Assembly (NCBI GenBank): GCA_001898625.1
Contig: MKUP01000027.1
Location: 253,799-317,798, forward strand
DNA length: 64,000 nucleotides
Source: Burkholderiales bacterium 67-32
GTDB lineage: Bacteria > Pseudomonadota > Gammaproteobacteria > Burkholderiales > Burkholderiaceae_B
Direction of reading: 5' to 3'
Part shown: piece after piece, positions 2,068 to 26,711 of the stretch
How the letters are laid out: each line of letters begins with the position of its first letter
Position numbering within the stretch: position 1 is the stretch's first letter
Notes under the pieces: generated by a model
The model's input: only the letters and a program-made list of their open reading frames with translations
Told to the model about the DNA's origin: nothing
Database searches by the model: none
Made by a program: the position numbers and the translations under genes

Positions 2068-2079
2068 CCGCGCCGTCCG

Positions 2080-2103
2080 CCCGCGGCGTCAGCGCGCCGC
2101 GGG
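2080..2103. terminator. GC-rich hairpin at the convergent junction
   Basis: A perfect 9-bp stem (CCCGCGGCG at 2080-2088, CGCCGCGGG at 2095-2103) with a 6-nt loop overlaps the stop codon of the last cellulose-operon gene and lies 12 bp past the stop of the Bug gene. It has no T-tract on either side, so it may only slow polymerase or need Rho. Confidence 0.3.
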
Positions 2104-3228
2104 GGCTTCCCAGATCGTGGTCTCGCCGCCCAGGGGGCGTTGCAGCGAACGCTCCGGGATTTCCCAGACGATCAGGCGGGGAGGCGTGTCGCGGAATTCC
2201 TCGCTCTTGAAATAGGCTTGCGCGGCGCCGGCGAATTCGCCGCCGTCGCGGGCGAAATTGACCACGCGGGTCTGCATCGCGGCCTCCAGGAACGGGACGA
2301 AGTTCGAGTTGCGCGAGTAGGACGTGCCGATCAGGGCCACCCGAGGCAGGTCCGCGTCGCCGAACAGATCGTCCTCGCTGGCCGGGGCGGCGGTGTCCGC
2401 CACCGGTGCGAAGGCCGTGCGCGGCTCCTGGTCCAGGGCCGGCAGCAGCGAGACTGGTAGCCATTCTATGCCGGCCAGCCGGATCAGGTCGCCCTCCAGC
2501 GCTTGCGGCTGGCCCCGCGTCACCGCATAGGCCTGGTGCGGTTGCAGCGCCTGGTCGGCCGAGGGCAGCGCGCGCGCCGCCGCGGCGATGGCGCCGGCCG
2601 CCGCTTCCGCGCCGGCTTCGTTCCAGTGGGTGTCGGTGCGCAGGAAACCCGGCACGGGCAGCTTGAGCAGCGCGGACTCCAGGTCCACGGTCCGTACGCC
2701 GCTGGCTCGCAGGAGGCCGTTCCACTCGCGCAGGCGCTCGTCCAGCGCGGCCGGGCGATAGACGCCGCAGCGTTCGGCGGCCGCGATGCGGCTCTTGTCG
2801 GGCACCGTGGCCACGAGCAGTTCGATGCCGCGCGCGGCCAGCCGCGTCCGCAGGTCGGCGACTTCCCGGGCGCGCGCCCGCAGGGCATCGTCGCCGCCGG
2901 CATGCGGCTCCAGTTCGTCGGCCAGGAACAGCCAGTCCGGGCAGCCCTGGCGCACGCGCGGGCCCAGGTCGCCCACGGCCAGCCAGCTCGCGCCGCGTTC
3001 CAGGCTGGCCGAGCCGGAGGGCAGCGGCGTCTTGGCCAGGGTGTCGGCGATCTCGGCGGTGACCCGTCCGTTCAGGAAGCCGGACCAATCGGGCGCGGTG
3101 CGGGTCAGGGGCAGTTGCTCGACCAGCAGTCCGTAGCCGTTGGACAGCAGGCCCGCCGCCAGGACGGCGGCCATGACGCAGCCCGCGAGCGCGTAGCGGG
3201 GGCCGGAGCGGGAAGAGGTCTTGTCCAT
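2089..3228 (-). CDS. wssI: SGNH-fold O-acetyltransferase, AlgX/AlgJ/WssI-like (cellulose acetylation)
   Basis: A 379-residue exported protein, probably periplasmic and anchored by one N-terminal membrane segment (about residues 12-33). It carries the AlgX/AlgJ catalytic signature: TDTHW with Asp199 and His201, and GTSYS with the candidate nucleophile Ser303. In the Pseudomonas fluorescens wss operon the equivalent protein helps transfer acetyl groups to cellulose exported by BcsAB. The ATG at 3228 overlaps the stop of the MBOAT gene by one base (TGATG), showing translational coupling. It is the last gene of the operon. An exact division of labour with the WssF-like protein is not established from sequence. 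Confidence 0.85.
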   Translation of the reverse strand: MDKTSSRSGPRYALAGCVMAAVLAAGLLSNGYGLLVEQLPLTRTAPDWSGFLNGRVTAEIADTLAKTPLPSGSASLERGASWLAVGDLGPRVRQGCPDWLFLADELEPHAGGDDALRARAREVADLRTRLAARGIELLVATVPDKSRIAAAERCGVYRPAALDERLREWNGLLRASGVRTVDLESALLKLPVPGFLRTDTHWNEAGAEAAAGAIAAAARALPSADQALQPHQAYAVTRGQPQALEGDLIRLAGIEWLPVSLLPALDQEPRTAFAPVADTAAPASEDDLFGDADLPRVALIGTSYSRNSNFVPFLEAAMQTRVVNFARDGGEFAGAAQAYFKSEEFRDTPPRLIVWEIPERSLQRPLGGETTIWEAPAAR

Positions 3229-4637
3229 CAGAACTGGAAGTACAGGAAGGGGACCGCGCCGCGGCTGGCGATCAGCGAGAAACCCAGCAGGAAGCCGGCC
3301 ACCGGCCAGGCGCCGTCCCAGGCGCGCATCAGCGCCGGCCGGCCGCCGCGAGCCAGCCAGGCGTCCACCGCCGGATACACGATGCACAGCACGCCCAGGA
3401 CCATGGCCATCAGGTGGGCGGGGCGAAGCTGGACGCGCAGGGCATCGCCCAGCGCGTAGCCGTTCAGGCCGAACTGGCCGGCATACATGTCCAGGGCCGA
3501 GCCGAAGGAGTGCGCCCGGAACAGCGTCCAGGCCAGCATGACGAACAGCAGGGTCAGCACCCGCGACAGCACGGCGGGCGGCTCGGGCAGCGACGCATGG
3601 CCCCACAGCCGGGTGCCGGCCAGGGCCAGGCCGTGGGCGATGCCCCACAGCAGGTAGTTCCAGTTGTCGCCGCCGTGCCAGAGGCCGGCGATGGCCATGG
3701 TCAGCAGCAGGTTGACGTAGGTGCGCACCTCGCCCTTGCGGTTGCCGCCCAGTGGGATGTAGAGGTAGTCGCGCAGCCAGCTCGACAGCGACAGGTGCCA
3801 GCGGCGCCAGAAGTCCTGGATGCTGGTGGCCAGGTAGGGGTGGTTGAAGTTCTCGGGAAAATGGAAGCCCAGCATCAGGCCCAGGCCGATGGCCATGGCG
3901 CTATAGCCGGCGAAGTCGAAGAACAGCTGCAGGCTGTAGGCGAAGCAGCCCAGCCACGCGTCCAGGAAGGTGGGGGCGGACAGCGAGAAGGCGGTCTGCA
4001 CCAGGGGCGACAGCGTGTCGGCGATCAGCACCTTCATGCCGAAGCCGATCATGAAGCGGCGCGCGCCCTGCGTGAACTGGGGCCAGTCGACGGTACGCTC
4101 GCGCAACTCGCGCGCGACCCAGTCGTAGCGGATGATGGGGCCGGCGATCAGGTGCACGAACATGGCCTGGTAGGCGCCGAAGTTCACCAGGCTGCGGTCG
4201 GCCTGCACGACGCGGCGTTGCACGTCGATCAGGTAGGAAATCGACTGCAGCACGATGAAGGACAGGCCGATGGGCAGCACGATCTTCTGCCAGGGAACGG
4301 GCATCGCGCCGCTCCACGACAGCACCTGGTTGAAGGTCTCGACCAGGATGTTGGCGTACTTGTACCAGCACAGCACGGACAGGTTGATCGCGATGAACGC
4401 CGCCAGCATCAGCATGCGCTGGCGCTCGGTGCGGGTGCTGTCTATGGCCATGCCGCCTATCCAGCCGACCAGGATGAGCGCGATGAACAGCAACAGCAGC
4501 AGCGGGCTCCACCAGCCGTAGAAGATCCAACTGGAGAACATCAGTACGGCATTGCGCCAGGACGCCGGCACGGCCGCGTAGACGAGCAGGAACAGCGGCA
4601 GGAACAGCGTGAGGAATTCCAGCGACGCAAAGACCAT
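3228..4637 (-). CDS. wssH: MBOAT-family O-acetyltransferase, AlgI/WssH-like
   Basis: A 469-residue polytopic inner-membrane acyltransferase expected to pass acetyl groups from a cytoplasmic donor across the membrane for cellulose O-acetylation. The N terminus MVFASLEFLTLFLPLFL is typical of AlgI-like proteins. The MBOAT signature region includes FNHPYLATSIQDFWRRWH, then SSWLRDYLYIPLGG near residues 280-300, and the catalytic-His segment AGLWHGGDNWNYLLWG near residues 315-330. Length matches AlgI and WssH. It lies 34 bp downstream of the AlgF-like gene and overlaps the WssI-like gene by one base. The bcs context makes cellulose, rather than alginate, the likely acceptor; no alginate genes are present. 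Confidence 0.9.
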   Translation of the reverse strand: MVFASLEFLTLFLPLFLLVYAAVPASWRNAVLMFSSWIFYGWWSPLLLLLFIALILVGWIGGMAIDSTRTERQRMLMLAAFIAINLSVLCWYKYANILVETFNQVLSWSGAMPVPWQKIVLPIGLSFIVLQSISYLIDVQRRVVQADRSLVNFGAYQAMFVHLIAGPIIRYDWVARELRERTVDWPQFTQGARRFMIGFGMKVLIADTLSPLVQTAFSLSAPTFLDAWLGCFAYSLQLFFDFAGYSAMAIGLGLMLGFHFPENFNHPYLATSIQDFWRRWHLSLSSWLRDYLYIPLGGNRKGEVRTYVNLLLTMAIAGLWHGGDNWNYLLWGIAHGLALAGTRLWGHASLPEPPAVLSRVLTLLFVMLAWTLFRAHSFGSALDMYAGQFGLNGYALGDALRVQLRPAHLMAMVLGVLCIVYPAVDAWLARGGRPALMRAWDGAWPVAGFLLGFSLIASRGAVPFLYFQF

Positions 4638-4671
4638 GGGGACGACCTGTGGGGGAACTCGGGAAGCGGCG

Positions 4672-5325
4672 TCAGCGGGTCAGTGCGTCGTCGGCGAACA
4701 GCGTGCGGGGGCCCTGGGGGCCGGGGACGACCAGGACCGTATAGCGCTGGCCGGCCTCGAGCGCGCCCAGGTCGCGGGCCGCGCCTTGCGGCTTGCCGTC
4801 GCAGGTCAGTTCCACCGACACCGCCACGGGGTTGATCAGGCGGCGTTTGGTCTGGCCCTGGCCGACGTTCTCGAAGATGCCGACGTTGCGGCCGGCCGTG
4901 CGCAGCCCGGCCTGTCGGCAGGCAGGATCGGCGTTGTAGAGCGCCAGCGAGGCGCGCATGGCGTTGAAGTCGTCGGGGGATTCCTTGATGACCACGGTCG
5001 CTTTCTTGTCCAGTGCGACGACGGTGGCGAACTCGCCGGGCTTGACCGTGACCGACACCGGCAGGTTCTGGCCGCCCCCGGTCAGGGTGCCCTTGACCGG
5101 CTTGCTGGCGGCCACCGGCATGAAGCCGGAAGCGGGCTTGTCCGCCGGCAGCGACAGCGTCGCGCTGGAGCCGGCGGCCTGGACCTCCAGCGGCCCGGAC
5201 GTGGCGTTGACGAAGCGCACGAAGGCCGAATCCTCGGCGGGGCCCGTCGGATAGAGCGCAATGCCGGCCGCGTGCGCGCTCAGCGCGGGCAGGCAGGCCA
5301 GTGCCGCGATCAGGGTGGGTTTCAT
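4672..5325 (-). CDS. wssG: AlgF/WssG-like periplasmic acetylation protein
   Basis: A 217-residue exported protein with a clear signal peptide (MKPTLIAALACLPALSAHAA). It has the two-part layout of AlgF proteins: beta-rich halves, with SAFVRFVNAT near residues 33-42 and a second half containing CDGKPQGAARDLGALEAGQRYTVLV. AlgF-type proteins are thought to carry or hand over acetyl groups in the periplasm between the MBOAT protein and the SGNH transferase. The ATG at 5325 overlaps the stop of the WssF-like gene (ATGA), so the two are translationally coupled. Family recognition rests on context and general pattern rather than a catalytic motif. Confidence 0.78.
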   Translation of the reverse strand: MKPTLIAALACLPALSAHAAGIALYPTGPAEDSAFVRFVNATSGPLEVQAAGSSATLSLPADKPASGFMPVAASKPVKGTLTGGGQNLPVSVTVKPGEFATVVALDKKATVVIKESPDDFNAMRASLALYNADPACRQAGLRTAGRNVGIFENVGQGQTKRRLINPVAVSVELTCDGKPQGAARDLGALEAGQRYTVLVVPGPQGPRTLFADDALTR

Positions 5326-5984
5326 TTACCGTTGGCTCCCTTGGTTGCCGGCGGGCTGGCCAGCGCCTGCGTGATGGCCGAGCCCCACGCGTTGTAGCCG
5401 GCCTGCGTGAAGTGCTGGCCGTCCACCGTGGCCCATTGTCCGGGCTTGGCGAATTTCAGCGAGTCGATGTATTGGCAGGGCGGCACATTGGCTTCCAGGA
5501 ACTTCGACATCAGCTGGACGCGGGGGTAGGTCTTGCCGTACTTGCCGCCTTCGCTGCCCCAGGCCGGCCCCACCCATGCGCACTTGGTGTTGGTGGAGGA
5601 AATGGCCTTGACCAGCGAGGTCGTTTGTTGCCAGGCCCAGGTCTTGGGGAAGTCCGGCTTGGTATAGGCGGCCATCGTGTCGCCGAAGACCAGGACGACG
5701 AGGTCGGGCTTTTCCTTGGCGATCAATTGCGAAATGGGTTCGGTCACGGCGGCCTTGCCCTTGACGACCGCCTTGGCGCTGCCGATGCGCTCGGCGCCGC
5801 CGCAGGAGCCGGGCGTGGCGGTCAGCCACTCGGCGGGCGTCGAGCCGCACACGCCTATGGTGTGCACGCTCTTTGCCCCCTGCCGGAGCAGGCCGTCATG
5901 CAGCGACCCGATCAGGTAGGACGGGGTGGCCAGGTGGCTGTCGCCGATGATGAGGATCGTCAGGCCAGCGATCAATGAAACCAT
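5322..5984 (-). CDS. wssF: SGNH/GDSL hydrolase-like protein, WssF-like
   Basis: A 220-residue protein with an N-terminal hydrophobic stretch, then the SGNH block I motif IIGDSHLATPSYL (Ser near residue 16), VVLVFGDTMAAY near 95-106, and a C-terminal DGQHFTQAGYNAWG containing the Asp-x-x-His pair. Size and position, directly after bcsC and before the AlgF-like gene, match WssF of the Pseudomonas wss operon, which is needed for cellulose acetylation. A GGAG ribosome site sits 6 nt before the ATG. It starts 40 bp after bcsC ends. Whether it acts as acetyltransferase or esterase is not decidable here. Confidence 0.8.
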   Translation of the reverse strand: MVSLIAGLTILIIGDSHLATPSYLIGSLHDGLLRQGAKSVHTIGVCGSTPAEWLTATPGSCGGAERIGSAKAVVKGKAAVTEPISQLIAKEKPDLVVLVFGDTMAAYTKPDFPKTWAWQQTTSLVKAISSTNTKCAWVGPAWGSEGGKYGKTYPRVQLMSKFLEANVPPCQYIDSLKFAKPGQWATVDGQHFTQAGYNAWGSAITQALASPPATKGANGK

Positions 5985-6024
5985 TTCGTACTCCGGTGAT
6001 GCCTACAGCAGTAAGGTGATGCGG

Positions 6025-9000
6025 TTACTCGCTCGCGTAGGGCGAAGCGAAGGGAGGTACCGGCATGGGGACCGGCCCCGTTTGCCGCTCGAGAGCATAG
6101 CGTACGTAGACGCCTCCCCTGTATTGCCGATAGTCGCGTGCGTTGTCGATGCTGAAATTGCCGCCCAGGAACCACTTGGGCGCGAGCTGGTATTCGGCGG
6201 CCAGCGCGAGGCCGTAGCCGATGCCGGTCTTGCTCTGGCCGGCGTAGCTGGCCTGCGTGCCATAGGCCGCGGCGATGGCTTCGGCCTGGGCCTGGCGGGC
6301 CGGATCCGAGAAGTAGTTCGCGGCGTCCTGCTTGATGTGCTGCACGCCGATCGCGCCCTTGATCTGGTAGCTGAAGCGGCCCTGGCGCTCCGCCCACGCC
6401 AGCGGCACGCTGAGCGCGACGAAGCGCTGCGGGCTGAAGTAGCCGCCGTTGCCCACCGTGTAGTAGCCCTGGTTCTTGTCGTAGCCGAAGACGGTCAGGT
6501 CCAGGCCCGAGGTGAGGGTGCGGTTGGGTTCGCGGATGAGCTGCGTATAGAAACCCGCGCCGCCCGAGAGCCGGCTGTTCGACTGCACGTTGTGGCCGTT
6601 CAGGCTGTGCCAGCCCAGGCTGCCGTAGAAACCGTAGCCATCGTAGTTCAGGCCGCCGCGCAGGCGTCCGCCCGTGGCCGTCACGCCGCCCCAGCTTTCG
6701 CCGGTCCGGCTGTCGCGCGCGCCTGCGTAGGAAAGAACCGTATCGGTGACCGCGCGGCGCGAGGCTTCCACGCCATAGGACAGGCGCGGGCCGTCCTCGT
6801 TGGCGACTTCGCCGTCGAAGCGGGCGCCGCCCACGATGTTCTGGTAGCGGAAACCGAAGGGCGTGACGCCCAGATCCAGCTTCAGTCCCGACAACTGGTA
6901 GCCCACCGCGACGCCCACGCCGCTGGCGTTCTGCGAGCCGGGCGCGCCGACGGCGCCCTGCTGCTGGGCATTCGCGGCGGCGGGGCCGCCGCCGAACTGG
7001 CTGCTGGTCGCGAAATCGCCGCCGACCGAGCCGGCGCGCAGCGTGACCGGGGTGGCCTGGACATAGGCGCGGCCGTCGCCGACGGGGAAGTCCACCGTGA
7101 CCGGCGTTTCCACGTCCAGCATGCGGCCCATGCCGCCGGCGCCGTTGTGCTGGCGCATGGTCGTGCCGACGGTGATGGTTGCGCTGCGGGCCTGCTGGAT
7201 CGCGTCCAGTTCTTCTTCCAGCGTTTTGGGCGCCGCAGGCGCGGCCGAGGCCGAGGCCTTGGCCAGGTTGGCCTGCGAGCCATCGGGCCGGCGGAAGGGG
7301 GACGGCGGCAGGGTGGGCGCGGGCTCGAGGCCGATCACCGGGTCGGGGATGGCTCCGGGCGAGGGCGGCGGGACGGTGCCCGGAGGCGGCGCCGATACCG
7401 TGGCGACGAAAGGTGCCTGTACGGTCGCGGACTCCAGGTCCGCGCGGACCGACGAGACGACCGGCGCCGGCTCCTTGCTGGACGACGCGCGTGCCACCGG
7501 CAGAGGGGCGGCCAGCGCCGCGGGCGCGGGTGCGGCCGTGGCGCGTCCGCCGTCTCCGCGTGCCGCCGCGGCGTAGGCGGCGGGCGCGGTAACCTGGGAG
7601 CCGAAGACGGGGCCGCCGTAGGAGACGGTCGCCGTGTCCGCCGGCGCCGTGCCCGCCAATCGCTGGGCCGGCGGATTGCTGCGGACCTGGCCGGGGAGGC
7701 TGGCGAAGGGATTGTCGTCGTTGGCCCGGGGGGCCGGCGCCGCCGCCGTCGTCTGCTGGGCAGCCGGAACCTTGGCCGCGGCCTGCGCGGCCAGGGCCGC
7801 CTTCAGGTATTCCGCCGCCTTGCCGCTCTTGCCCATGCTGTTGTAGACCCGGCCGACCGAGGCGAGCACCGTCGGGTTGTTGGGTTGCAGGCTGACGGCC
7901 TTGGCCAGCGCCGCTTCGGCGTAGTCGGTATTCCTGGCCTGTACCGCGGTCTGGGCGGCGGCGGTCAGCAGTTCGGCATTGTCCGGATCCTTCTCCAGCA
8001 ACTGCCGGTGCAGGGCCAGCGCCTTGGCGCCGTCGCCGGCGGCCGAGTACATGCGCGCCAGCGCCCCCACGACCAGCGGGTCGTTGGGATACTTCGCCAG
8101 CATCGGCGCCAGCACGTCGTAGGCGTCGGCGATGCGGCCGCGCTGGCGCAGCGCCTCGGCCTGGCGCACGGTATAGAGTTTGCGCAGGTCCTCGAAACTG
8201 CGGGTCTGGCGGTCGTTCAGCGTCTGCGTCTGCAATTGCCGCAGGATGCCCGCGGCCTCGGCGTCCTGGTCGGTCTTGAGCAGCACGACCGTGTATTGCA
8301 GCAGCAGGTCGTTCTCGGGGGTGGGCGTGCGGGCCATCGCCTGGCGCAACAGGCTCAGGGCATGCATGTTGTCGCCGGCGTCGATGTAAGCCGCCGCGAG
8401 CGAGCCGACCTGTCCCGGATTCTGCGCCGCCTCGGTTTCCAACTGCGCGAGGATGGCCTTGGCCTGGTCCGGCTTGCCGGCCCGCGCGAGCGTGACGGCC
8501 TGCGACATCTGGTACTGGGTCCAGGCGAGTTTCTGCAGGTCGATGACTTCCTTGGTCCTGTTGCGCGCCGGGATCTTGTCCAGCGTCTTGAGCGCCGCGT
8601 CCCAGTCCTGGACTTCGGCGGACAACAGGGCGCTGGCCTGCAGCGCGCCAGGGTCGTCGGGGTTGGTCAGCAGCAGGCCGTCGACCACGCCCCGCGCTTC
8701 GGCGATGCTGCCCGTCTTCAGGTACAGGCGCGCCAGTTCCAGGCGTAGCCAGGCATCGTCGGGATTGGCGCGCATGCCGTCTTCCAGCAGCCGTCGCGCG
8801 GCGGCGTAGTCGCCCCGTTCGCTCGCCTTGCGGGCATCGCTGCGTGCCTGGGTGGCGCGCAATTGGCCGACGCTGCCTATCTTCTGCTGGTCGGCCGGGC
8901 TCAGTTGCGAGACCAGCCGCAGCGCTTCCTCCATGCGGTCGGTCTGCGCCAGCACGTTCACCAGGCCTTGCAGAGCGGAAAGGTTGTCCTTGTCGCGCGC

Positions 9001-10335
9001 CAGCACGCCGCGGAATATTTTCTCCGCCTGGGGGTATTGGCCGCGCTCGGCCAGCACGCCGCCCAGCGCGACCTCGGCCGTCCGGTCGTTCTGCGACAGT
9101 TTGACGGCCTGTTCCAACTGCTGCTGCGCCTTCTCCAGTTCACCGGCCTGGCGCGCGCGTTCGGCGCTGGCGTTGAGCGACCAGTATCGGGCGACGCCCA
9201 GCACCTGTTGCCAGCCGCCGCGCGAACGCGGCTGCCGTGTGGCGCGCGTGAGGAATTCCACGGCTTCGTCGGGACGCTCCTGCTTGAGGCGCAGGACGCC
9301 CATGCCACCCAGCGCGTCGGCGTGGTTGGGATTGGCCTGGAGCAGCGCGGTGAGGTCCGCTTCGGCGCTGTCGAGGTTGCCGCCTTCCAGTTCCTTGAAT
9401 GCGCGGCTCAGCTGTGTGTCTTGCGGCGAGGGCGCGGAGCGTGCCGCGGTGCCGCCTCCGCCCCTGCGTGTGCGGCTGTATTGCTGGCGGATCTCGGTGT
9501 CGTCCGGATGGGCCTTCAGGTAGGCCTCGAACAGGGGGGCGTCGGCGGGGCGGGGGTCGCCGTACCAGGTCAACGCCGCTCGCCAGCTTTCGTCGGCGTC
9601 GCCGCCGACGTCCTGGCGGGACGACAGCCTGGCCAGGCGGCGGATGCCCTCGGCCCGGGTACTTTCCTTGCGGGTCAGCAGCTTGGCCAGCGCGAGCGAG
9701 ACCTGGATGTTGTCGGGGCTTTCGCGTTGCAGCCGTTCCAGGCCCTGGCGCGCCTCGTCCCAGCCGTCGTTGGTGTAGCCAAGGTAGCCGTAGTATTCCT
9801 GCGCGATCCGGCCTTGCGGCGTCTTGCCGCCGAACACGGTCCGGTACTGCGCCACGGCCTTGTCGATCTCGCCCGAACTGGCCAGCAGCCGGGCTTGTTC
9901 GAGCGCTTTCGGATTGTCGCCGGCGCGCAGGTTGATCTCCTGCTCCAGCCGCGCCGCGTCGACATCGGCCGCGCCCGATGCGCGCAGCTGCGCCAGGTAT
10001 TCCCGGGCACGGGCGGGCCGGTTGGCCTTCAATTCGAGCAGGCCCAGGTTGTACAGCGCCTCGGTGTTCTTGGGATCCGCCTGCAGCAGGCGTCCCCAGG
10101 CTTCCGCGGCGCGTGCGTCGTTGTTGCGGGACTGCCAGTAGCGGCCCTGTTCGAGCAGCGAGGAGGTCGTGGCCGTGGGGGTCTGCGCCGGGGCGGCGGG
10201 CTGGGTCTGCGCGTTCAGGCTCGGGGAAATGGCAAGCGCGGCCAGCAGGCCGGCCGTCAGGAAACCACCTCCCGCACGGCCCGGGCTTGGAGTGGCCCGG
10301 TGCCGGGGCGCTAGCGAGCGACGGTGGGCGGACAT
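6025..10335 (-). CDS. bcsC: Cellulose synthase outer-membrane export protein BcsC
   Basis: A 1436-residue protein made of a signal peptide (ending near SPSLNA, about residue 45), a periplasmic superhelix of many TPR repeats up to about residue 900, a Pro/Ala-rich linker (about 930-1110), and a C-terminal outer-membrane beta-barrel ending in an aromatic-rich strand. It threads the cellulose chain through peptidoglycan and the outer membrane. I chose the ATG at 10335 (MSAHRRS), preceded by GGGAG 6-7 nt upstream; the frame stays open far upstream across bcsZ, but that part is a shadow. The 5' end overlaps bcsZ by 25 bp. The length is somewhat above the usual 1150-1300, mainly from the linker. 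Confidence 0.94.
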   Translation of the reverse strand: MSAHRRSLAPRHRATPSPGRAGGGFLTAGLLAALAISPSLNAQTQPAAPAQTPTATTSSLLEQGRYWQSRNNDARAAEAWGRLLQADPKNTEALYNLGLLELKANRPARAREYLAQLRASGAADVDAARLEQEINLRAGDNPKALEQARLLASSGEIDKAVAQYRTVFGGKTPQGRIAQEYYGYLGYTNDGWDEARQGLERLQRESPDNIQVSLALAKLLTRKESTRAEGIRRLARLSSRQDVGGDADESWRAALTWYGDPRPADAPLFEAYLKAHPDDTEIRQQYSRTRRGGGGTAARSAPSPQDTQLSRAFKELEGGNLDSAEADLTALLQANPNHADALGGMGVLRLKQERPDEAVEFLTRATRQPRSRGGWQQVLGVARYWSLNASAERARQAGELEKAQQQLEQAVKLSQNDRTAEVALGGVLAERGQYPQAEKIFRGVLARDKDNLSALQGLVNVLAQTDRMEEALRLVSQLSPADQQKIGSVGQLRATQARSDARKASERGDYAAARRLLEDGMRANPDDAWLRLELARLYLKTGSIAEARGVVDGLLLTNPDDPGALQASALLSAEVQDWDAALKTLDKIPARNRTKEVIDLQKLAWTQYQMSQAVTLARAGKPDQAKAILAQLETEAAQNPGQVGSLAAAYIDAGDNMHALSLLRQAMARTPTPENDLLLQYTVVLLKTDQDAEAAGILRQLQTQTLNDRQTRSFEDLRKLYTVRQAEALRQRGRIADAYDVLAPMLAKYPNDPLVVGALARMYSAAGDGAKALALHRQLLEKDPDNAELLTAAAQTAVQARNTDYAEAALAKAVSLQPNNPTVLASVGRVYNSMGKSGKAAEYLKAALAAQAAAKVPAAQQTTAAAPAPRANDDNPFASLPGQVRSNPPAQRLAGTAPADTATVSYGGPVFGSQVTAPAAYAAAARGDGGRATAAPAPAALAAPLPVARASSSKEPAPVVSSVRADLESATVQAPFVATVSAPPPGTVPPPSPGAIPDPVIGLEPAPTLPPSPFRRPDGSQANLAKASASAAPAAPKTLEEELDAIQQARSATITVGTTMRQHNGAGGMGRMLDVETPVTVDFPVGDGRAYVQATPVTLRAGSVGGDFATSSQFGGGPAAANAQQQGAVGAPGSQNASGVGVAVGYQLSGLKLDLGVTPFGFRYQNIVGGARFDGEVANEDGPRLSYGVEASRRAVTDTVLSYAGARDSRTGESWGGVTATGGRLRGGLNYDGYGFYGSLGWHSLNGHNVQSNSRLSGGAGFYTQLIREPNRTLTSGLDLTVFGYDKNQGYYTVGNGGYFSPQRFVALSVPLAWAERQGRFSYQIKGAIGVQHIKQDAANYFSDPARQAQAEAIAAAYGTQASYAGQSKTGIGYGLALAAEYQLAPKWFLGGNFSIDNARDYRQYRGGVYVRYALERQTGPVPMPVPPFASPYASE

Positions 10336-11534
10336 GTTTTCTCCCAGGATAGTTGCACTTGTCCAGTGCTCAGGAATCGATAACGTTCTTCGGCCCAGCC
10401 CAAGCCGAACAGGCTGAGCACGACGTCGTAGTACGGGGGCTGGCGGCCGGGACCTGTCGTGCGAAGGCTGTCGTCCAGCAGGGCCTGGGCGCGGCGCCGC
10501 TGCAGGTCGGCCAGCCAGGGCTGTTTCTTGGCCGTGAAGTACGGCACCAGCGCCGACGAGAAGCCGAACGGGCCGGTGCCTTCGGTCTGGCCGGTCATGG
10601 CGCGCACGCGCTCGGGCGGCGCGCCGGCGCTCGCGGTCGCGGTGGCCATGCCGGTCAGGGCCTGCAGCATCGGGGCGGCCAGCGGATCGTTGGTGTGGGC
10701 CATGCCGGCCCACAGGTAGGTACGGATGGCGTCGTAGCTGCCCAGGTCGCCCTTGATGGGGTCGACCACGAACAGGCCGCTGGCGGGCGAGGCGCCGCGA
10801 TAGGCGACCCAGTCGGCCACGTAACCCTTGGGGCTGACGGCGGCCAGCAGGGCCGCCGTGTTGTCGGCGATCCGGGCCCAGGGACCCGACGGCGAAACCG
10901 TGGCCAGCCGGCGCAGCAGCGGCAGCGGCAGGTAGCTGGGATTGATCTGCCAGAGCGAGTCCGGCCGCGCGAAGCTGCGGCGGCCGGGAAGCAGCATGGG
11001 CCCGAGGCCGGGCAGCTCGACGGTCTCCTCGGCCTCGATGCGGGCCAGGAGGGCCCGCGCGTCGCGCAGGTAGTCGTCGCGGCGCCATCTCTCGCCGGCC
11101 TCGAACAGCGCATACGCGAACCAGAGGTCGGCGTCCGAGGCGGAGTTGTCGTCCAGCACGCCCCAGGTGCCGTCTTCGCGCTTGCCCCAGTACCACGCGG
11201 GCAGCCGGGCGCCGATGTCGCCGCCGGCCAGGTTGTCGACGGCCCAGCGCCACATCCTGTCGAAGGCGGCCGGATCGTTGGCGACCAGGGCGAAGAACAT
11301 GCCGTAGGATTGCCCTTCGGACGAAGAGTGCAGGCGCGGCGTGCTGGCGTCCAGTACCCGGCCGTCGGGCTGGATGAAGTGCGTCCCGAATGCCTGCCAC
11401 AGCGGCCACGCTGGCGCGCACGCGTCCGGGCCGGCCGCGCGGGCGGCCGCCGGCCCGGCCAGCGCGAACGACAGCGCCGCCGCCATGGCGGCCAGGCGCC
11501 ATGATGGCCGCCCGATAGCTGGGTACGCCTTCAT
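10311..11534 (-). CDS. bcsZ: Periplasmic endo-1,4-beta-glucanase BcsZ (GH8 cellulase)
   Basis: A 407-residue exported glycoside hydrolase family 8 enzyme that trims cellulose in the periplasm and affects fibre quality. The signal peptide ends near AARAAG (residue 35). The catalytic acid Glu73 lies in SSSEGQSYGMFFAL, followed by the WRWAVDNLAGGDIG and DADLWFAYAL blocks typical of BcsZ. The ATG at 11534 gives a proper signal peptide; the frame upstream is an overlap with bcsB. There are 17 bp to bcsB upstream and a 25-bp overlap with bcsC downstream. Confidence 0.94.
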   Translation of the reverse strand: MKAYPAIGRPSWRLAAMAAALSFALAGPAAARAAGPDACAPAWPLWQAFGTHFIQPDGRVLDASTPRLHSSSEGQSYGMFFALVANDPAAFDRMWRWAVDNLAGGDIGARLPAWYWGKREDGTWGVLDDNSASDADLWFAYALFEAGERWRRDDYLRDARALLARIEAEETVELPGLGPMLLPGRRSFARPDSLWQINPSYLPLPLLRRLATVSPSGPWARIADNTAALLAAVSPKGYVADWVAYRGASPASGLFVVDPIKGDLGSYDAIRTYLWAGMAHTNDPLAAPMLQALTGMATATASAGAPPERVRAMTGQTEGTGPFGFSSALVPYFTAKKQPWLADLQRRRAQALLDDSLRTTGPGRQPPYYDVVLSLFGLGWAEERYRFLSTGQVQLSWEKTCPPTVAR

Positions 11535-11551
11535 CTGGCCACCGGCATCGC

Positions 11552-13855
11552 TCAGGCGTTCAGGCGGCGGGCCGCCCGGGCGCGAAGCGCGATGTAGACC
11601 AGGATGCCGAGCAAGCCGATGCCGAGCACCGCAAGCAGCAGCAGGATCCAGGGCTGGCGGGCAGCGTACCACTGGATGCTCTTGAAGAAGCCCAGCGATC
11701 CCACGTAGTAGGTCGGGCCCGAGACCAGCGAGTCGACCTGCTTGCCGCGCACGACGGACACGCTGCCCTGGATGAACTCGGTCCGGTCCTCGCCGATCAG
11801 CGCATCCACGGCTTCGGCCAGGCCTTCGGGACGGGTGGCCGAGATCGCGACCACGCTGCGGCCGCTGCGCAGGGGCGATTCGAAGCCCGCGAACACCACG
11901 CTGGCGCCGTCGGTGGTGAAGGACAGCGAATTACGCGCCTTGCCGGTGTCCTCGCGCGGGTTGGGAACGACCCAGTTCCAGGCCTGGTAGACCCAGTCCG
12001 ACAGGCTGAAGCGGCGGCTGCCCTCGGCCAGCGAGACGGGCAACTGGCTGCTCCACTGCTTGAGCAGGGGCTGGTTGTCGCCCGAGGCGATCACCAGCAG
12101 GTCCTTGTCGGCCAGGCCGGAGACCTGCTCGGCGCGCGCGACCGTGACGTTCAGCGCGGGATAGCCGGTCGATTCCGACAGGCGGCCCAGCACGCCCAGA
12201 TAGGCGCTGTATTCGGCCGTGCCCGCGCTGTCCGGGAGGATGATCGCGGTCTGCGACAGGTCGGCCATCCGGGTGAACGGGAAGCCGCTGTTGTGGAACA
12301 CGGCCAGGTCGGGTAGGGCCATGTAGTGCTTGAAGCCGGAGATGTCGATGGTGGAATCCGGTTCGATCGCGCCGCGGACGTTGTCGATGATCACGTCACG
12401 GCACTGGCCTTCCTTGATGTAGTCGTACTGGTAGCGGAACTGCAGCCGCGAGCGCGGCGGCATCAGCTGCAGCGGCAGCTCCATCTGCGCCCGCACGGGA
12501 ATGCTGCTGTCCGTCTGGAGCTTGGCCAGCAGGCCTTCGCCGCCGTTCAGGCGTTCGATCGACGGCAGCGGGAACGACTTCACCAGTTGGTCGTTCACGC
12601 CGAGGGTCATGGTCGAGCTGGTCGACAATTGCTGGGGCGTATAGCGATACCGCAGGTCCAGTGGAATGCCGCTCTCGCGCCAGCCGAACAGATCGGGCGG
12701 CAAGCGCAGATCGACCGGAATGGTGGGAGGCGCGAAGCCCGAGACGTTCAGGCTGGTGGGCGGCACCAGTTCGCCGAACTTGACCGGACGGTCGCTGCGC
12801 AGCCAGTTGGGCGCGTCATAGGGCTTGCGCGGTTCGAGTTCCGCCAGTTGCGTGATGACCGCGCGCTGGCCGGTCAGCGCCTTGCTGCCCGTGACCACGG
12901 CCTGGGCGGCGCGCTTGAGTTCCTTGGCATCGCGGCCGCCCAGCACCAGCAGCTTGCCGTACATGTCGTTGGGGTTGGGGATCAGGGTGACGCTCGGCCC
13001 GCTGGGGGCGGGCAGGTCGAGCCCGCCCGAGCGCAGCTCGCCGGTGGTCAGCAGGATGGCGTTGCCCTTGGCGGGCAACTGGTTGACGGCGGTCGGGAAG
13101 CGCGCGCCGCGGTAGCTCGCCAGCGCCCCGAACCACGACGACAGGATGCCGGCCGCCTCCAGGGTGGTGTTGTCTGGCGCGGCGGCGAATACGAAGGGCA
13201 GCGCCAGCGGCCGGCTGTCGCGCCGGTCGAAGAAGGGCAGCGGCAGGATGGACAGGTCGTTGGCCAGCACCAGCGGCGTGACCGTGAGTTCCAGCGTGCT
13301 GCGGTTGCTGATATTGGCCCACAGGCTCGAGTGCAGGGGATCCTCGCACTCCATGGTGTAGTGGCCGATGAGCTGCACGTTCAGATTGTTGAACTGCGTG
13401 ACGAGCTGCGAAGGCAGGTTGACCACCGTTTCCTTGGGCTCGCCCGCGCTTTCCTTGGGCACCGGCACCGAGGCCGCGACTTCGCCGTTGACCAGCACGT
13501 TGATGTGCGACAGGTCGGCCAGCAGCGCGGGCGAATAGGTGTAGCGCAGGCGCAGTTGCGCCGAGGACACGACCTCGTCGGCGCGGATGTCGAAGGGCAG
13601 GCTGAAGCTGCCTTCCACCCCGCGGATCACCATGGGCGTGCCCGCGCCGAGCTGCTTGAGCGTGACGCCATAGGTACGGCCACCCGACACCAGTTGCTCG
13701 GGCTTGGCGGGCGCCTCGCCGCCGGCCGGGGCCGGCTGGGTGGCGGCCTGCAGCGGCAGCGAGTTCAGCAGCAGCGCGGCGGCCAGCATCGCCGCGAGCG
13801 GCCTGGCCGACGGCGCATAGGCGCGCTTGCGCGGAAGATTTCTGGTTGTTGTCAT
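11552..13855 (-). CDS. bcsB: Cellulose synthase regulatory subunit BcsB
   Basis: A 767-residue periplasmic subunit anchored by a C-terminal transmembrane helix (WILLLLAVLGIGLLGILVYIAL, near residues 735-756). It guides the nascent glucan from BcsA. The sequence shows a signal peptide (MLAAALLLNSLPLQAA), the first carbohydrate-binding and ferredoxin-like pair starting at RTYGVTLKQLG, and the GHYTMECEDPLHSSLWANIS segment with its Cys typical of BcsB. The ATG at 13855 overlaps the bcsA stop by four bases (ATGA). Length is normal for BcsB without fusion to BcsA. Confidence 0.94.
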   Translation of the reverse strand: MTTTRNLPRKRAYAPSARPLAAMLAAALLLNSLPLQAATQPAPAGGEAPAKPEQLVSGGRTYGVTLKQLGAGTPMVIRGVEGSFSLPFDIRADEVVSSAQLRLRYTYSPALLADLSHINVLVNGEVAASVPVPKESAGEPKETVVNLPSQLVTQFNNLNVQLIGHYTMECEDPLHSSLWANISNRSTLELTVTPLVLANDLSILPLPFFDRRDSRPLALPFVFAAAPDNTTLEAAGILSSWFGALASYRGARFPTAVNQLPAKGNAILLTTGELRSGGLDLPAPSGPSVTLIPNPNDMYGKLLVLGGRDAKELKRAAQAVVTGSKALTGQRAVITQLAELEPRKPYDAPNWLRSDRPVKFGELVPPTSLNVSGFAPPTIPVDLRLPPDLFGWRESGIPLDLRYRYTPQQLSTSSTMTLGVNDQLVKSFPLPSIERLNGGEGLLAKLQTDSSIPVRAQMELPLQLMPPRSRLQFRYQYDYIKEGQCRDVIIDNVRGAIEPDSTIDISGFKHYMALPDLAVFHNSGFPFTRMADLSQTAIILPDSAGTAEYSAYLGVLGRLSESTGYPALNVTVARAEQVSGLADKDLLVIASGDNQPLLKQWSSQLPVSLAEGSRRFSLSDWVYQAWNWVVPNPREDTGKARNSLSFTTDGASVVFAGFESPLRSGRSVVAISATRPEGLAEAVDALIGEDRTEFIQGSVSVVRGKQVDSLVSGPTYYVGSLGFFKSIQWYAARQPWILLLLAVLGIGLLGILVYIALRARAARRLNA

Positions 13856-16062
13856 CGATTCTTCATCCTGGTTTGGATAGGACGGGCTTGCAGCCGGGCG
13901 CGCAGGGCCTGGCCTCCGTGTAGGGCGAGTTGCTTCATGCCGAGCACACCGATGCGCACGACCTCGCGCAGGCCGACCAGCGGCGCGTCCGGCGTGTTCT
14001 GGCCCCAGTTCTCGGCCCAGGTGTCGGCGCGCGCGAATGTCATCTCGGCCATTTCCACCTGCTGTTGCAGCGTCAGCGATTCGAAGCGCAGGCCCAGGTG
14101 GTGGTCGGTCGAGAACACGATGGTGGCGGGAAAGATCCGCTGCTCGGTGCCGCGGAACAGGGCCACGTGCAGTTCCTGCCCGATCTCCAGCCGTTCCAGT
14201 TCCGGCGGCAGCTGGATGCCCAGGCCGGTCGCGGAATAGTCGGTAGTGCTGCACGCGACGGTCTTGCCGTTCGGCAGACGCAGCATGGCCGGGATCTGCG
14301 CGGCAACGCGGGGCTGCGAGCGGAACTGCCGTTCCTCGCGGGCGACGGCGATGCTCGCGCTGGTGATGATGATGTTGTAGAGAGTCCAGGCCAGGTTGAT
14401 TGCCAGGGTGAACAGGCCGCCCGAGTCATAATCGACGACGGCCAGCGAGATCAGGCCAGCGATCAGGCCGGCGATGTTCAGGGCCAGCAGCACGAGGTAG
14501 GGCTTGGCCATGTCCCAGTCGAACCAGGCCTGGCCCTGGGCGCCGCCCTTGGCCGTGACGTTGAACTTGCCCAGCTTGGGGTTGATCAGGGCCAGCAGTG
14601 CCGGCCGCATGATGTACCACGCCAGCACCGATTCGTAGACCTCGTTCCAGAACGAGTGGCGGAAGCGCCCCTGCATCCGCGAACTGGTCAGGTTGGCGTG
14701 GATCAGATGGGGGAAGGCATACAGCGTGATCATCAGCGCCGATGCCTGGAACACGTGCGCGCCGAAGAACAGGAAGGCCAGCGGCGCGGTCAGGAACACC
14801 AGTCGCGGCAGGCCGTAGAAGAAGTGCAGCATGGCGTTCAGGTAGCACATGCGCTGGCTCAGGCTCAGCCCCTTGCCGAACAGCGGGTTGTCGACGCGGA
14901 AGATCTGCGCCATGCCGCGCGCCCAGCGCACGCGCTGGCCGATGTGGCGGGACAGGTTTTCCGTCGCCAGGCCGGCCGCCTGCGGGACGGCCAGGTAGGC
15001 CGTGTTGTAGCCGGCGCGGTTCAGCTTGAGGGCCGTATGGGCGTCCTCGGTCACCGTCTCGGTGGCGATGCCGCCCACTTCCTCGAGCTGGCTGCGGCGC
15101 AGGACCGCGCACGAGCCGCAGAAGAACGCCGCGTTCCAGAGGTCGTTGCCGTCCTGGACCAGGCCGTAGAACAGCTCGCCTTCGTTGGGTACCGCGCGGA
15201 AGGTGTGCAGGTTCTTCTCGAACGGATCGGCCGAGAAGAAATAGTGGGGCGTCTGCAGCATCGCCAGCTTCGGATCCTTCAGGAACCAGCCTATGCAGAC
15301 CTGCAGGAAGGAGCGGGTGGGGATGTGGTCGCAGTCGAACACGGCCACGTACTCGCTGCTGGTCAGCTCCAGCGCCGCGTTCAGGTTGCCGGCCTTGGCC
15401 GATTCGTTGTTGCTGCGCGCGATGTAGCCCACGCCCAATTCGGAGCAGAAGTCCTGGAACTCCTTGCGGCGGCCGTCGTCCAGCACGAAGATGTGCAGGC
15501 GGTCGGCCGGCCAGTCCAGCGACACGGCGGTCAGCACCGACTGCTTCACCACGTCCAGCGGCTCGTTGTAGGTCGGGATCAGGATGTCCACCGAGGGCCA
15601 GGTCGCCGGGTCGGCGGGCATCGCGGCCGGCAGCCGGCGCAGCGGCCAGATGGTCTGCAGATAGCCCAGCAGCAGCACCGACAGGGCGTAGATCTCGGCC
15701 AGCAGCAGGCCATAGCCGAAGGCGATGTCCAGCCAGGTCTGGAAGTCCAGCGTCGAGGTCAAACGCCAGTACATGTAGCGCAGCGACATCGTCGCCGACA
15801 GCAGCACCATCAGTACCGTCGGCAGGCGTCCCGCGACGTTGCGCAGCACCAGCGCGGCCACCAGGGCCGCCAGGGACACCAGCAGCTGCGGCAGCGCTTC
15901 CAGGGGGGCGGTGATGACGACGGCAAGGCTGAAGCAGGCCACGGCGGCCAGCACGATCCGGACGAGCCGGTGGCTCCACAGCGGCAGGGCGGCCAGGCGG
16001 TCGGCGCGTGCGTCGGCTGGCGCCTGGTGGGAGGTGGGGACGGCTGGCGGCAGCGGACTCAC
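13852..16062 (-). CDS. bcsA: Cellulose synthase catalytic subunit BcsA (UDP-forming, PilZ domain)
   Basis: A 736-residue inner-membrane glycosyltransferase family 2 enzyme that polymerises UDP-glucose and extrudes the chain. Catalytic motifs are all present: Asp159 (VDILIPTYNE), Asp195-Asp196, the DCD motif at 243-245, the TED at 338-340 and QRVRW at 376-380. Membrane helices flank the GT domain. The C-terminal PilZ domain keeps the c-di-GMP-binding RxxxR (Arg581 to Arg585) and DYSATG (608-613), so allosteric activation by c-di-GMP is expected. The start is GTG at 16062 with AGGAG 7 nt upstream; no in-frame ATG fits. It follows the proline-rich gene by 35 bp and overlaps bcsB by 4 bp. Confidence 0.95.
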   Translation of the reverse strand: MSPLPPAVPTSHQAPADARADRLAALPLWSHRLVRIVLAAVACFSLAVVITAPLEALPQLLVSLAALVAALVLRNVAGRLPTVLMVLLSATMSLRYMYWRLTSTLDFQTWLDIAFGYGLLLAEIYALSVLLLGYLQTIWPLRRLPAAMPADPATWPSVDILIPTYNEPLDVVKQSVLTAVSLDWPADRLHIFVLDDGRRKEFQDFCSELGVGYIARSNNESAKAGNLNAALELTSSEYVAVFDCDHIPTRSFLQVCIGWFLKDPKLAMLQTPHYFFSADPFEKNLHTFRAVPNEGELFYGLVQDGNDLWNAAFFCGSCAVLRRSQLEEVGGIATETVTEDAHTALKLNRAGYNTAYLAVPQAAGLATENLSRHIGQRVRWARGMAQIFRVDNPLFGKGLSLSQRMCYLNAMLHFFYGLPRLVFLTAPLAFLFFGAHVFQASALMITLYAFPHLIHANLTSSRMQGRFRHSFWNEVYESVLAWYIMRPALLALINPKLGKFNVTAKGGAQGQAWFDWDMAKPYLVLLALNIAGLIAGLISLAVVDYDSGGLFTLAINLAWTLYNIIITSASIAVAREERQFRSQPRVAAQIPAMLRLPNGKTVACSTTDYSATGLGIQLPPELERLEIGQELHVALFRGTEQRIFPATIVFSTDHHLGLRFESLTLQQQVEMAEMTFARADTWAENWGQNTPDAPLVGLREVVRIGVLGMKQLALHGGQALRARLQARPIQTRMKNR

Positions 16063-16097
16063 GCCGGTCTCCTGCGGGGCTGGCTCGGCTTCATGGA

Positions 16098-16511
16098 TCA
16101 GTTCCTGAGCAGGCGCTGGAACAGCGCGGGCATCGCTCGGGGATCCGGCCGGCCATCGTCGGCGTAGCCGCGCAGGCGTGCGAAGATCCCCGCGACAGGC
16201 TCGTCCGCGTCCGCGGACGGGGCCGGCGGGGGCGAAGCCGGGACCGGCGCGGCGGCCTGCGCCGGGACGGGTTGGCCGGCGTCCGGGCTCGCGGCCGGCT
16301 CCTGCGTCACGGGCGTCTCATCGGCGGCGTGGAAGCGGGTGGGTGGGACGTACACGGTGGGCGGCTCCGCCGCCTGTTCGCCCGCGTCGCTGCCGATGGC
16401 TGGCACCGTGCGGCGCTGGGCCAGGGCGGGCCAGCGGCTCACGGCGGGCAGCGCCGGTGGCGTGGCGGGCTGGGGCGTATCCCCCGCCTCGGGATGATTG
16501 GTCGTATCCAT
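16098..16511 (-). CDS. Small proline/alanine-rich protein of the cellulose operon (BcsO/BcsP-like)
   Basis: A 137-residue, low-complexity Pro/Ala-rich protein with no signal peptide or membrane segment. Only the C terminus looks folded: VAGIFARLRGYADDGRPDPRAMPALFQRLL, which resembles a short amphipathic docking helix pair. Proline-rich accessory proteins named BcsO or BcsP occur at this position next to bcsD or bcsQ in other cellulose operons; by position and composition it belongs there, but I cannot assign it to one family. I chose the ATG at 16511, which has GAGGTG 6 nt upstream, over the GTG two codons earlier. It starts 7 bp after the bcsD stop and ends 35 bp before bcsA. Confidence 0.7.
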   Translation of the reverse strand: MDTTNHPEAGDTPQPATPPALPAVSRWPALAQRRTVPAIGSDAGEQAAEPPTVYVPPTRFHAADETPVTQEPAASPDAGQPVPAQAAAPVPASPPPAPSADADEPVAGIFARLRGYADDGRPDPRAMPALFQRLLRN

Positions 16512-16518
16512 GGCCACC

Positions 16519-16992
16519 TCAGGCCGCGGCGGGCGATCCCAGGCGCAAGCCTATGCCGCTGATGCCGTCGAAGTCGGAAATCTGGGAAACGCGCAGCCTG
16601 TCGCCGGCGCCCAACTGCTCGAACCACTGCTGGTAGACGCCCTCCAGGAACGAGGGCGTCCAGTCCAGGGCCTCACGTCCCAGGGCGGCCTCGAGGGGGG
16701 CGCAATAGTGCTGCAGGCGCAGGTGGTCGGTCTGATCGGTGATCTCGACCCAGCCCCAGTCCAGGCGCGTCCAGATCTGGCTCATGGCCAGCTGGATGTC
16801 GTCCAGGGTCGTGCAGGCCGGCACGGGCAGCTCGCGCCCGAAGCGGCCGCCCACGCGGCGCATGAAGGTGCGCAATTCGGCGGCCGAGAATTTTTCGGCC
16901 AGTTCCTGCCCGGTCGAGAGCAGGAAGACCTTCCACTGCGCCGCGACCTGGCGGCCGGAAAGATAGCTGATGACGGAAGAAGTAGCGTCCAT
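16519..16992 (-). CDS. bcsD: Cellulose synthase subunit BcsD
   Basis: A 157-residue soluble periplasm-facing or cytoplasmic ring-forming subunit that in Komagataeibacter organises export channels and promotes crystalline cellulose. The length is almost identical to that protein (156 aa). The sequence SSVISYLSGRQVAAQWKVFL at the N terminus and the DGISGIGLRLG end fit the family. I chose ATG 16992 (MDATSS) because AGGA sits 6 nt upstream; another ATG five codons earlier lacks a ribosome site. It is the first gene of the cellulose operon. There is no BcsQ or BcsR gene beside it. Confidence 0.82.
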   Translation of the reverse strand: MDATSSVISYLSGRQVAAQWKVFLLSTGQELAEKFSAAELRTFMRRVGGRFGRELPVPACTTLDDIQLAMSQIWTRLDWGWVEITDQTDHLRLQHYCAPLEAALGREALDWTPSFLEGVYQQWFEQLGAGDRLRVSQISDFDGISGIGLRLGSPAAA

Positions 16993-17309
16993 GGGAGTCC
17001 TTGTCATGGGTAATCGTTTCGTCCGCACGTGCCAATGCACGACGCTTCCGGACGCGAGTGCGAACGGAATGCGAAGGAATACGGATACGGGTAACGGCGC
17101 CCCCGAGGGGCGGGACAAGGCCTCAGTGGGCCGGGGGGATTCGCTTCATAGGGTCTTACGCCCATTCTGGCAAGGCGGAGCTACGTGTTTCCGGCACGTA
17201 TTCTTGAAGCATGACCTTGCGTCTTGAGGTCTTCCCCAGGGTAAATCAGGGGAGACAGTCGGAATTTAGCCTAGATGCATGACCCACGCAATGTTTTGTT
17301 GCGTTGGTT
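16993..17309 (-). promoter_or_regulatory. Leader and upstream region of the cellulose operon with a candidate sigma-70 promoter
   Basis: The 317-bp gap before bcsD holds no credible gene. Read on the minus strand it contains TTGCCA (17168-17173), a 17-bp spacer and TATGAA (17145-17150), a plausible sigma-70 promoter that would give a leader of about 145 nt. Just upstream lies a small inverted repeat ACGTG-N7-CACGT near 17180-17200, a possible regulator site. ACGCAA/TTGCGT near 17286-17304 could be a weak hairpin behind the 2OG oxygenase gene. I see no riboswitch fold. Confidence 0.4.
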
Positions 17310-20485: not shown

Positions 20486-22132
<1,647 letters not shown>

Positions 22133-26085: not shown

Positions 26086-26168
26086 GGCGGTTCCCGGTGA
26101 TTGTTCTTGTGGCCGTCGAAGCGGCTTTGCCCAGGCGGAAGTATAAGGAAAAAAGATGACACGGCCGT

Positions 26169-26612
26169 TCAACGGCCGGGGTTTTCCACCTTCTGCAATT
26201 CATGGTTGCCGGCCAGCGGGCCCTGGGGACGCGTGCCGTCCATGTAAAGCTGGATGAGCCGTCCCTCGGCCACGAAATACTGCCGTCCGTCCCCGGCCTG
26301 GTCCAGGGTGATGCGTGTGCCGTCGGGCTGCCACGTGAAGCTGCCCTCCACGCGGTCGGCGCGCGGTTGGCGGTCGAGATACTGGGTCTCCAACTCGTAG
26401 CGGCCATCCTGGCGCAGTGTGAGCCGGGTCCGGATGCCCGGGCAGTCGGCGCAGGGAAGCGTGCCCTCGTAGACGCCATTCCAGTCCAGCGCGTTGCGGG
26501 CGTTGTGCCCGTCCGCGACGGGAGCGGCGGCGGGCGTGTCGTGTTCCCTGGGCGGCGCGTCGCAGCCGGCGATGAGCACGGCGGCAAGGCACGCGAAGGC
26601 GGCGGTCTTCAT
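26169..26612 (-). CDS. NlpE-like outer-membrane lipoprotein
   Basis: A 147-residue lipoprotein with lipobox LIAGC (Cys17). The mature part matches the N-terminal NlpE domain: WNGVYEGTLPCADCPGIRTRLTL with the CxxC pair Cys54 and Cys57, then ELETQYLDRQP. In E. coli NlpE signals surface contact and lipoprotein traffic faults to the Cpx system; this protein has only that first domain. It is 83 bp upstream of the MASE1-PAS gene in the same direction. No cpxAR genes are in view, so a signalling role is open. Confidence 0.85.
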   Translation of the reverse strand: MKTAAFACLAAVLIAGCDAPPREHDTPAAAPVADGHNARNALDWNGVYEGTLPCADCPGIRTRLTLRQDGRYELETQYLDRQPRADRVEGSFTWQPDGTRITLDQAGDGRQYFVAEGRLIQLYMDGTRPQGPLAGNHELQKVENPGR

Positions 26613-26711
26613 GATGGCTGCTCCGGTTGCCGGCGCTCGCGCGGGGCGCGGCGCTTCCCGCCAACGGTAGCAGGCGACGGCGCCCGCGCCGGCAACCGGA
26701 TGTAAGGGGGC

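Follow-up and report, generated by a model that had tools for sequence, protein, structure and literature searches.

The window analysed here, a stretch of 64,000 nucleotides on contig MKUP01000027.1 of Burkholderiales bacterium 67-32, carries ten co-directional genes for cellulose synthesis and acetylation on the minus strand, running from 16992 to 2089 in the order bcsD-bcsP-bcsA-bcsB-bcsZ-bcsC-wssF-wssG-wssH-wssI. This operon stands out in having lost bcsQ and the BcsR-like N-terminus of BcsP, both of which survive elsewhere in the genome. That genome (6.66 Mb, 34 contigs) has its nearest named relatives in Pigmentiphaga, the best loci being those of P. kullae K24 (97% in BcsB), Alcaligenaceae bacterium SAGV5, Pigmentiphaga sp. 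NML030171 and P. humi. Gene identities were taken from Pfam and NCBIfam profiles, and starts and junctions were read off the sequence:

16519..16992, minus strand: bcsD (PF03500, 79.5 bits; PDB 8pkd, E 3.1e-38)
16098..16511, minus strand: short bcsP, proline-rich, without the BcsR-like N-terminus (no Pfam match; placed by alignment with RWPxL and two C-terminal FxRL motifs)
13852..16062, minus strand: bcsA, GT2 and PilZ cellulose synthase with a GTG start (Pfam/NCBIfam; sole BcsA of the genome)
11552..13855, minus strand: bcsB, ATG start (PF03170, E 4.3e-228)
10311..11534, minus strand: bcsZ, GH8 endoglucanase (PF01270; PRK11097 equivalog; ATG read from the sequence)
6025..10335, minus strand: bcsC, 1436 aa, TPR repeats and BCSC_C domain (PF05420, E 2.3e-109)
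5322..5984, minus strand: wssF, SGNH-like (GDSH and DGQH motifs, position and relatives; Pfam GDSL sub-threshold only)
4672..5325, minus strand: wssG, AlgF-like (PF11182, E 2.3e-13)
3228..4637, minus strand: wssH, AlgI-like MBOAT protein (PF03062, E 5.5e-28; PDB 6bug, E 2.7e-26; WHG region aligned to DltB)
2089..3228, minus strand: wssI, AlgJ/AlgX-like SGNH protein (PF16822, E 4.1e-78 in the longer open frame; TDTHW and GTSY aligned to AlgJ 4o8v)

Since gaps are at most 40 bp throughout and four junctions overlap, the layout given by the sequence-only reading, with BcsD, a proline-rich BcsP and a full acetylation module in one operon, is right in detail. The profile check likewise upheld its call of BcsD for the gene at 16519, for which an ATG at 17007 and an open frame from a TTG at 17118 are alternative starts. 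The short bcsP begins 7 bp after bcsD and encodes a protein of 19% proline. No BcsQ match was found anywhere in the window on either strand, in agreement with the claim that bcsQ is absent from the operon, and E. coli BcsE and BcsG queries (tblastn at 1e-3, window only) gave no match on either strand. A scan of 1900-17400 for sigma-70-type promoters returned none, an uninformative outcome with 0.7 expected by chance.

Alignment suggests working acetylation enzymes: the Asp-x-His and Ser motifs of WssI line up with AlgJ (PMC10302187 describes a catalytic triad for WssI), and the WHG region of WssH lines up with DltB. BcsABC would make and export cellulose under cyclic di-GMP (c-di-GMP) control through PilZ, with BcsZ trimming the chain, and WssH would move acetyl groups over the inner membrane, with WssG, WssI and WssF attaching them to the chain in the periplasm. 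The sequence-only reading had framed the polymer question around BcsD bundling these acetylated chains into crystalline fibrils. The link between Komagataeibacter BcsD and highly crystalline cellulose (PMC9318390) speaks for this view, but the state of the polymer, bundled or amorphous, is not readable from sequence, and we consider crystalline fibrils highly improbable here.

The same reading had also singled out the meeting of BcsD with acetylation genes, and the survey does not support its being rare. PF03500 is present in 53 of 268 genomes of the host family, giving 55 BcsD loci outside the window and 56 with it, from which 14 pieces without bcsA or bcsC were set aside. The remaining 42 loci comprise 24 with BcsD, BcsQ and Wss, 12 with BcsD and BcsQ without Wss, and six with BcsD and Wss without BcsQ, where a locus was scored as Wss if it had one or more of wssF-I; in five of the 24 the piece breaks off at wssF, so that wssF alone is visible, and the piece of L050, one of the 12, extends only 402 bp past bcsC. 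A second set consists of 80 named loci kept among 134 confirmed (six of the 80 incomplete, some genomes common to the family set; L071 and L152-L158 stand outside the analysis). In it, 23 loci carry both BcsD and Wss (15 with bcsQ, eight without), 29 Wss alone, 21 BcsD alone and one neither. Both modules thus occur together in 30/42 family loci and 23/80 named loci, the latter from Bordetella, Pusillimonas, Sheuella, Xylophilus, Burkholderia, Paraburkholderia, Pararobbsia, Pigmentiphaga and two uncultured beta-proteobacteria. In print, PMC11470070 (citing Sana et al. 2024) describes 'type I or hybrid' operons that encode BcsD as well as BcsP and, in some systems, the Wss complex, and an acetylated-cellulose operon is reported in Bordetella avium (PMC7112194). 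Being frequent among the loci surveyed and named as a hybrid class in print, the combination is known in kind; BcsD with acetylation genes is frequent in beta-proteobacteria, and the gene combination as a novelty is ruled out. The unusual feature is the splitting of BcsP and the orphan bcsP-bcsQ pair.

The statement that Pseudomonas-type wss operons use no BcsD was borne out, with no BcsD in 19/19 Pseudomonas-named loci that have bcsA and bcsC, although two of them (L082, L130) extend less than 1.3 kb upstream of bcsA. The same short upstream reach applies to the BcsD-negative scores of L080, L094 and L149, and three further loci scored negative (L142, L146, L147) have BcsD elsewhere in the genome. 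In Verticiella, L149 was scored without bcsD, yet what is judged the same genome (G225) has a BcsD where a different contig ends (locus L007), so that some BcsD genes are lost from view at contig ends in surveys of this kind. A plasmid search for BcsD gave 33 records, each below 60% identity.

Compared with the type I or hybrid systems of beta-proteobacteria (PMC11470070), the window shares BcsD, the proline-rich BcsP, the synthase genes and, as in the hybrid form, the Wss genes; it differs in lacking bcsQ and the BcsR-like N-terminus of BcsP, both of which persist in the orphan pair. That class is further marked by a cytosolic BcsD-BcsP scaffold, which the proteins of the window are predicted to form. 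The wss operon of Pseudomonas fluorescens SBW25, which makes acetylated cellulose (PMC10302187), has bcsABZC (wssBCDE) followed by wssFGHI in the same order; the window adds BcsD and BcsP and has neither the BcsQ/MinD-like wssA nor wssJ in its operon. The operons of Bordetella, Pusillimonas and Sheuella with BcsD, BcsQ and Wss (L089, L093, L095, L098, L133) have the same genes in largely the same order, but carry bcsQ and a BcsP with the BcsR-like segment (by pattern), neither of which the window has. With the E. coli type II system (BcsRQABEFG), the window has in common a BcsA with PilZ, and PF10945, the BcsR family model, recognises ordinary BcsP at its N-terminus; the window is without BcsE and BcsG and has acetylation genes in place of the phosphoethanolamine transferase.

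Gene copy number varies among these operons as well. The Bordetella and Pusillimonas operons have two bcsB genes, and two bcsB frames occur in 21 of the 24 family loci with BcsD, BcsQ and Wss (L011, L023, L024, L027-L034, L037-L040, L044, L046-L048, L051, L056), as against one in the window; a tandem wssC duplication is reported for Bordetella avium (PMC7112194). Two wssF-like genes are found in 13 of the 30 family loci with BcsD and Wss (L013, L015, L036 and ten relatives), where the window again has one.

In E. coli, the BcsR hairpin sits in a hydrophobic pocket of BcsA with D21 between R367 and R792, and the spacing of its key residues is D21, L25, F29 and Y36; a consensus model places the N-terminus of BcsP at the same docking site on the synthase (PMC11470070). 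Among the family loci with BcsD and BcsQ, this BcsR-like segment was found by pattern in 35/41, and the six missed (L024, L031, L038, L052, L054, L055) all match PF10945 with E values no higher than 2e-4, although three fall slightly short of the curated cut-off. PF10945 matches all four other BcsP scored alongside the window-type proteins (29-56 bits) and, in a further set that includes these six, 10/10 BcsP, seven over the cut-off and three just below. In the window BcsP and its orthologues in L013, L014, L015, L016 and L021, the model finds nothing at E 1 (0/6). The operon might be an ordinary beta-proteobacterial hybrid type I operon in which BcsP has diverged past recognition with its function unchanged: content and order match the Bordetella-type operons save for bcsQ and the second bcsB, and the window-type proteins retain RWPxL and two C-terminal FxRL-type motifs (the first being ILARL in L016; the FxRL motif is our own description, with no published definition behind it). 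This is improbable, as the segment is missing in length, with RWP at residues 28-30 of a 139-aa frame and the D/L/F/Y positions ahead of it replaced by a short proline-rich stretch, and as PF10945, silent in all six, detects copies as divergent as those of L141 and L055. A search of 5.8 billion proteins with the short BcsP returned seven clusters, and all three with a source name are Pigmentiphaga.

Shortening of BcsP as a routine outcome of bcsQ loss is ruled out, since BcsQ-less operons of Paraburkholderia, Pararobbsia and two Pigmentiphaga genomes (G189, G194) retain the segment. By pattern or sequence, it stands in cis in L036 and L067 (Pigmentiphaga), L139, L141, L143, L144 and L151, as well as in the operons L142, L146 and L147, which lack both bcsD and bcsQ, and PF10945 confirms it in L036, L067, L139, L141, L142 and L146. 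Paraburkholderia contributes four of these hybrids and Pararobbsia one. Among the loci examined, the Pigmentiphaga group alone has dropped the segment. Erosion of the BcsA docking pocket in this group was gauged by the equivalents of R367 and R792, which are kept, and by alignment columns that set the segment-less BcsA apart; of seven such columns, four are also altered in one or more BcsQ-less operons with the segment retained. The opposite end of BcsP follows a different distribution: bcsD-less operons of Schauerella (L091), Achromobacter (L099) and G194 (L067) encode a BcsP with the segment and without the FxRL tail, and the Paraburkholderia bcsD-less operons L142, L146 and L147, whose genomes hold BcsD elsewhere, keep the tail. 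This is suggestive, and only that, of a tie between the FxRL tail and BcsD. L067 mirrors the window: this hybrid operon lacks both bcsD and bcsQ, and its BcsP carries the segment but no FxRL tail.

The missing parts are found outside the hybrid operon. A whole-genome count of PF10945 gives exactly one copy in each of six Pigmentiphaga genomes (the window genome, G000, and G190, G191, G192, G196 and G197), never in the hybrid operon; one of 151 first-look candidates in G000 and two of 152 in G192 were left unscored. In the window genome, the single detected copy lies on another contig (C13:183571) and matches PF10945 at E 4.5e-20, with a spacing of D, +4 L, +8 F and +15 Y that fits that of BcsR; a PDB search with this orphan BcsP gave no match. 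Adjoining the PF10945 copy in all six genomes is a strong BcsQ (PF06564, 114-133 bits, next best below 48 bits). In G000, G192, G196 and G197 these form a bare bcsP-bcsQ pair with a 4 bp overlap and both frames open in 4/4, with no bcsA, B, Z or C within the 19.9 kb fetched around it. G191 has a bcsD-P-Q remnant with PF10945 in its BcsP and no synthase genes of that operon, and each of these five genomes has a single BcsA, in the hybrid operon. In G196, a single contig, about 1.3 Mb separate the pair from the hybrid operon. G190 has a second bcs operon, here operon I, that still holds its synthase genes. A search of literature titles, which does not establish absence from print, gave none on a bcsP-bcsQ pair that is split off or orphaned, and none on how Pigmentiphaga makes cellulose.

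Two side observations concern these loci. At L059 (5835-8380, G000:C13), CheB-like, response-regulator GGDEF and EAL genes lie beside the orphan bcsP-bcsQ, so that the pair neighbours c-di-GMP enzymes; in the EAL tree, the rows of G190 and G189 were dropped, their matches being 13 and 40 bp long. In G197 the hybrid operon is split in two, with bcsD-P-A-B-Z on contig C8 and bcsC and wssF-I on C16 (L014, L065, L068), through either a rearrangement or an assembly fault (the genome is listed at 8% contamination).

The synteny of the orphan pair with operon I of G190 points to its origin. In G190 this operon reads bcsD-P-Q-A-B-Z-C up to bcsC residue 908 at the contig end, and the orphan loci L059-L062 align with the region upstream of it at 89-92% over 7.7-9.0 kb; the alignment skips all or most of bcsD, resumes at bcsP and ends with bcsQ. 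Downstream of the orphan pair lies moaA, which in G195 stands beyond bcsC (operon I of G195, a genome with no hybrid operon, spans two contigs). By this comparison, the pair is a remnant of a second bcs operon stripped of bcsABZC and bcsD. G000, G192 and G196 have a common join in which the leader of bcsD is kept, now ahead of bcsP, and the join of G197 differs, since pieces of bcsD remain there. In a tree of the rpoB region rooted on G189, G191 falls outside G195 and G190 (support 1.00), both of which still have operon I synthase genes; loss of these genes therefore occurred at least two times, sparing bcsP and bcsQ each time. The BcsA tree unites the Pigmentiphaga hybrids in a single clade (support 0.999) and places G194 and G189 beyond the segment-less group, and the BcsP segment was therefore most simply lost once; the WssH tree is in broad agreement.

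The orphan bcsQ is under purifying selection: its omega is 0.22-0.40 over six orphan pairs, and neutrality is rejected in 6/6 (Fisher p 4e-2 to 4e-13). The BcsR-like segment shows 0-3 nonsynonymous differences in 45 codons over these pairs, with an omega below that of the rest of BcsP in 6/6 (closest case 0.42 versus 0.44). In the hybrid operon, comparison of the window with G192 or G196 gives an omega of 0.05-0.06 for bcsA, 0.16-0.17 for bcsD and 0.46-0.49 for the short bcsP.

Taken together, these observations make it probable, as a prediction from gene content, that the orphan bcsP-bcsQ on another contig serves in trans the synthase of the ten-gene operon with its segment-less BcsP. On balance, BcsP appears to have split in two: the copy in the acetylated-cellulose operon would serve as scaffold only, and a second copy, the activator, would act with BcsQ, as an orphan pair, on the hybrid synthase in trans. 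BcsD and the short BcsP would form a cytoplasmic scaffold beneath the synthase via the C-terminal FxRL motifs, and the orphan BcsP, together with BcsQ, would supply a BcsR-like hairpin, which would occupy the back pocket of BcsA and stabilise the PilZ domain, its own FxRL tail allowing it to dock on the same BcsD scaffold. Action in trans is the best reading because other BcsQ-less hybrids keep the segment in cis and the six Pigmentiphaga genomes retain one copy elsewhere with bcsQ.

Several observations weigh against such a division. Four Paraburkholderia genomes have operons with BcsD and Wss and no close BcsQ (best 1e-33 to 7e-32), and some hybrid systems may thus do without BcsQ. G190, in which both operons are present, cannot show which of them its BcsP and BcsQ serve. 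The arginines of BcsA equivalent to E. coli R367 and R792, retained in 6/6 window-type genomes, are compatible and not discriminating, as R367 is kept in 117/119 and R792 in 119/119 of the BcsA compared (two gaps at R367). Constraint on the orphan bcsQ is weaker than on bcsA (omega 0.32-0.40 among G000, G192 and G196 versus 0.05-0.06), the 45-codon segment alone rejects neutrality in just 3/6 pairs, and outside the segment neutrality of BcsP is not rejected at 0.05 in 2/6 (p 0.36 and 0.051). G197 branches outside G190 in the bcsQ tree, a conflict with rpoB for which a third synthase loss or recombination at the bcsQ locus is a possible explanation, and the WssF tree fails to recover the Pigmentiphaga hybrids as one group.

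An alternative possibility is that the hybrid operon is self-sufficient, with the short BcsP and BcsD doing the scaffold work, c-di-GMP alone activating the synthase, and the orphan pair decaying or otherwise employed. The BcsQ-less Paraburkholderia hybrids lend it some weight, as do the constraint on orphan bcsQ below that on bcsA and the near-neutral evolution of BcsP outside the segment in two of the six pairs. It is nevertheless unlikely: bcsP and bcsQ outlasted the erosion of operon I at least twice, neutral evolution of the orphan bcsQ is rejected in all six pairs, and those same Paraburkholderia operons hold the BcsR-like segment in cis.

If the division of BcsP between operon and orphan pair is true, activation of the synthase would be uncoupled from expression of the synthase and its scaffold. 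The E. coli BcsR hairpin plugs into the synthase and appears to hold its active state, and in PMC11470070 the same job for BcsP in BcsD systems rests on a consensus model. With the two halves of BcsP naturally separated, the plug and scaffold roles would be separable genetically, and the activator of cellulose synthase in scaffold-type systems becomes a directly testable question. Surveys that score 'no bcsQ' on the operon alone can be wrong at the genome level.

Two neighbouring regions of the window may be added. Genes for a MASE1-domain protein and for a diguanylate cyclase of dCache-GGDEF type lie on the minus strand at 24850-28343, some 8-10 kb upstream of bcsD, and may be a local c-di-GMP source for the synthase. 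At 20486-22132, also on the minus strand, a Cpn60/GroEL-family gene lies upstream of the oxygenase and alkyltransferase genes located ahead of the operon.

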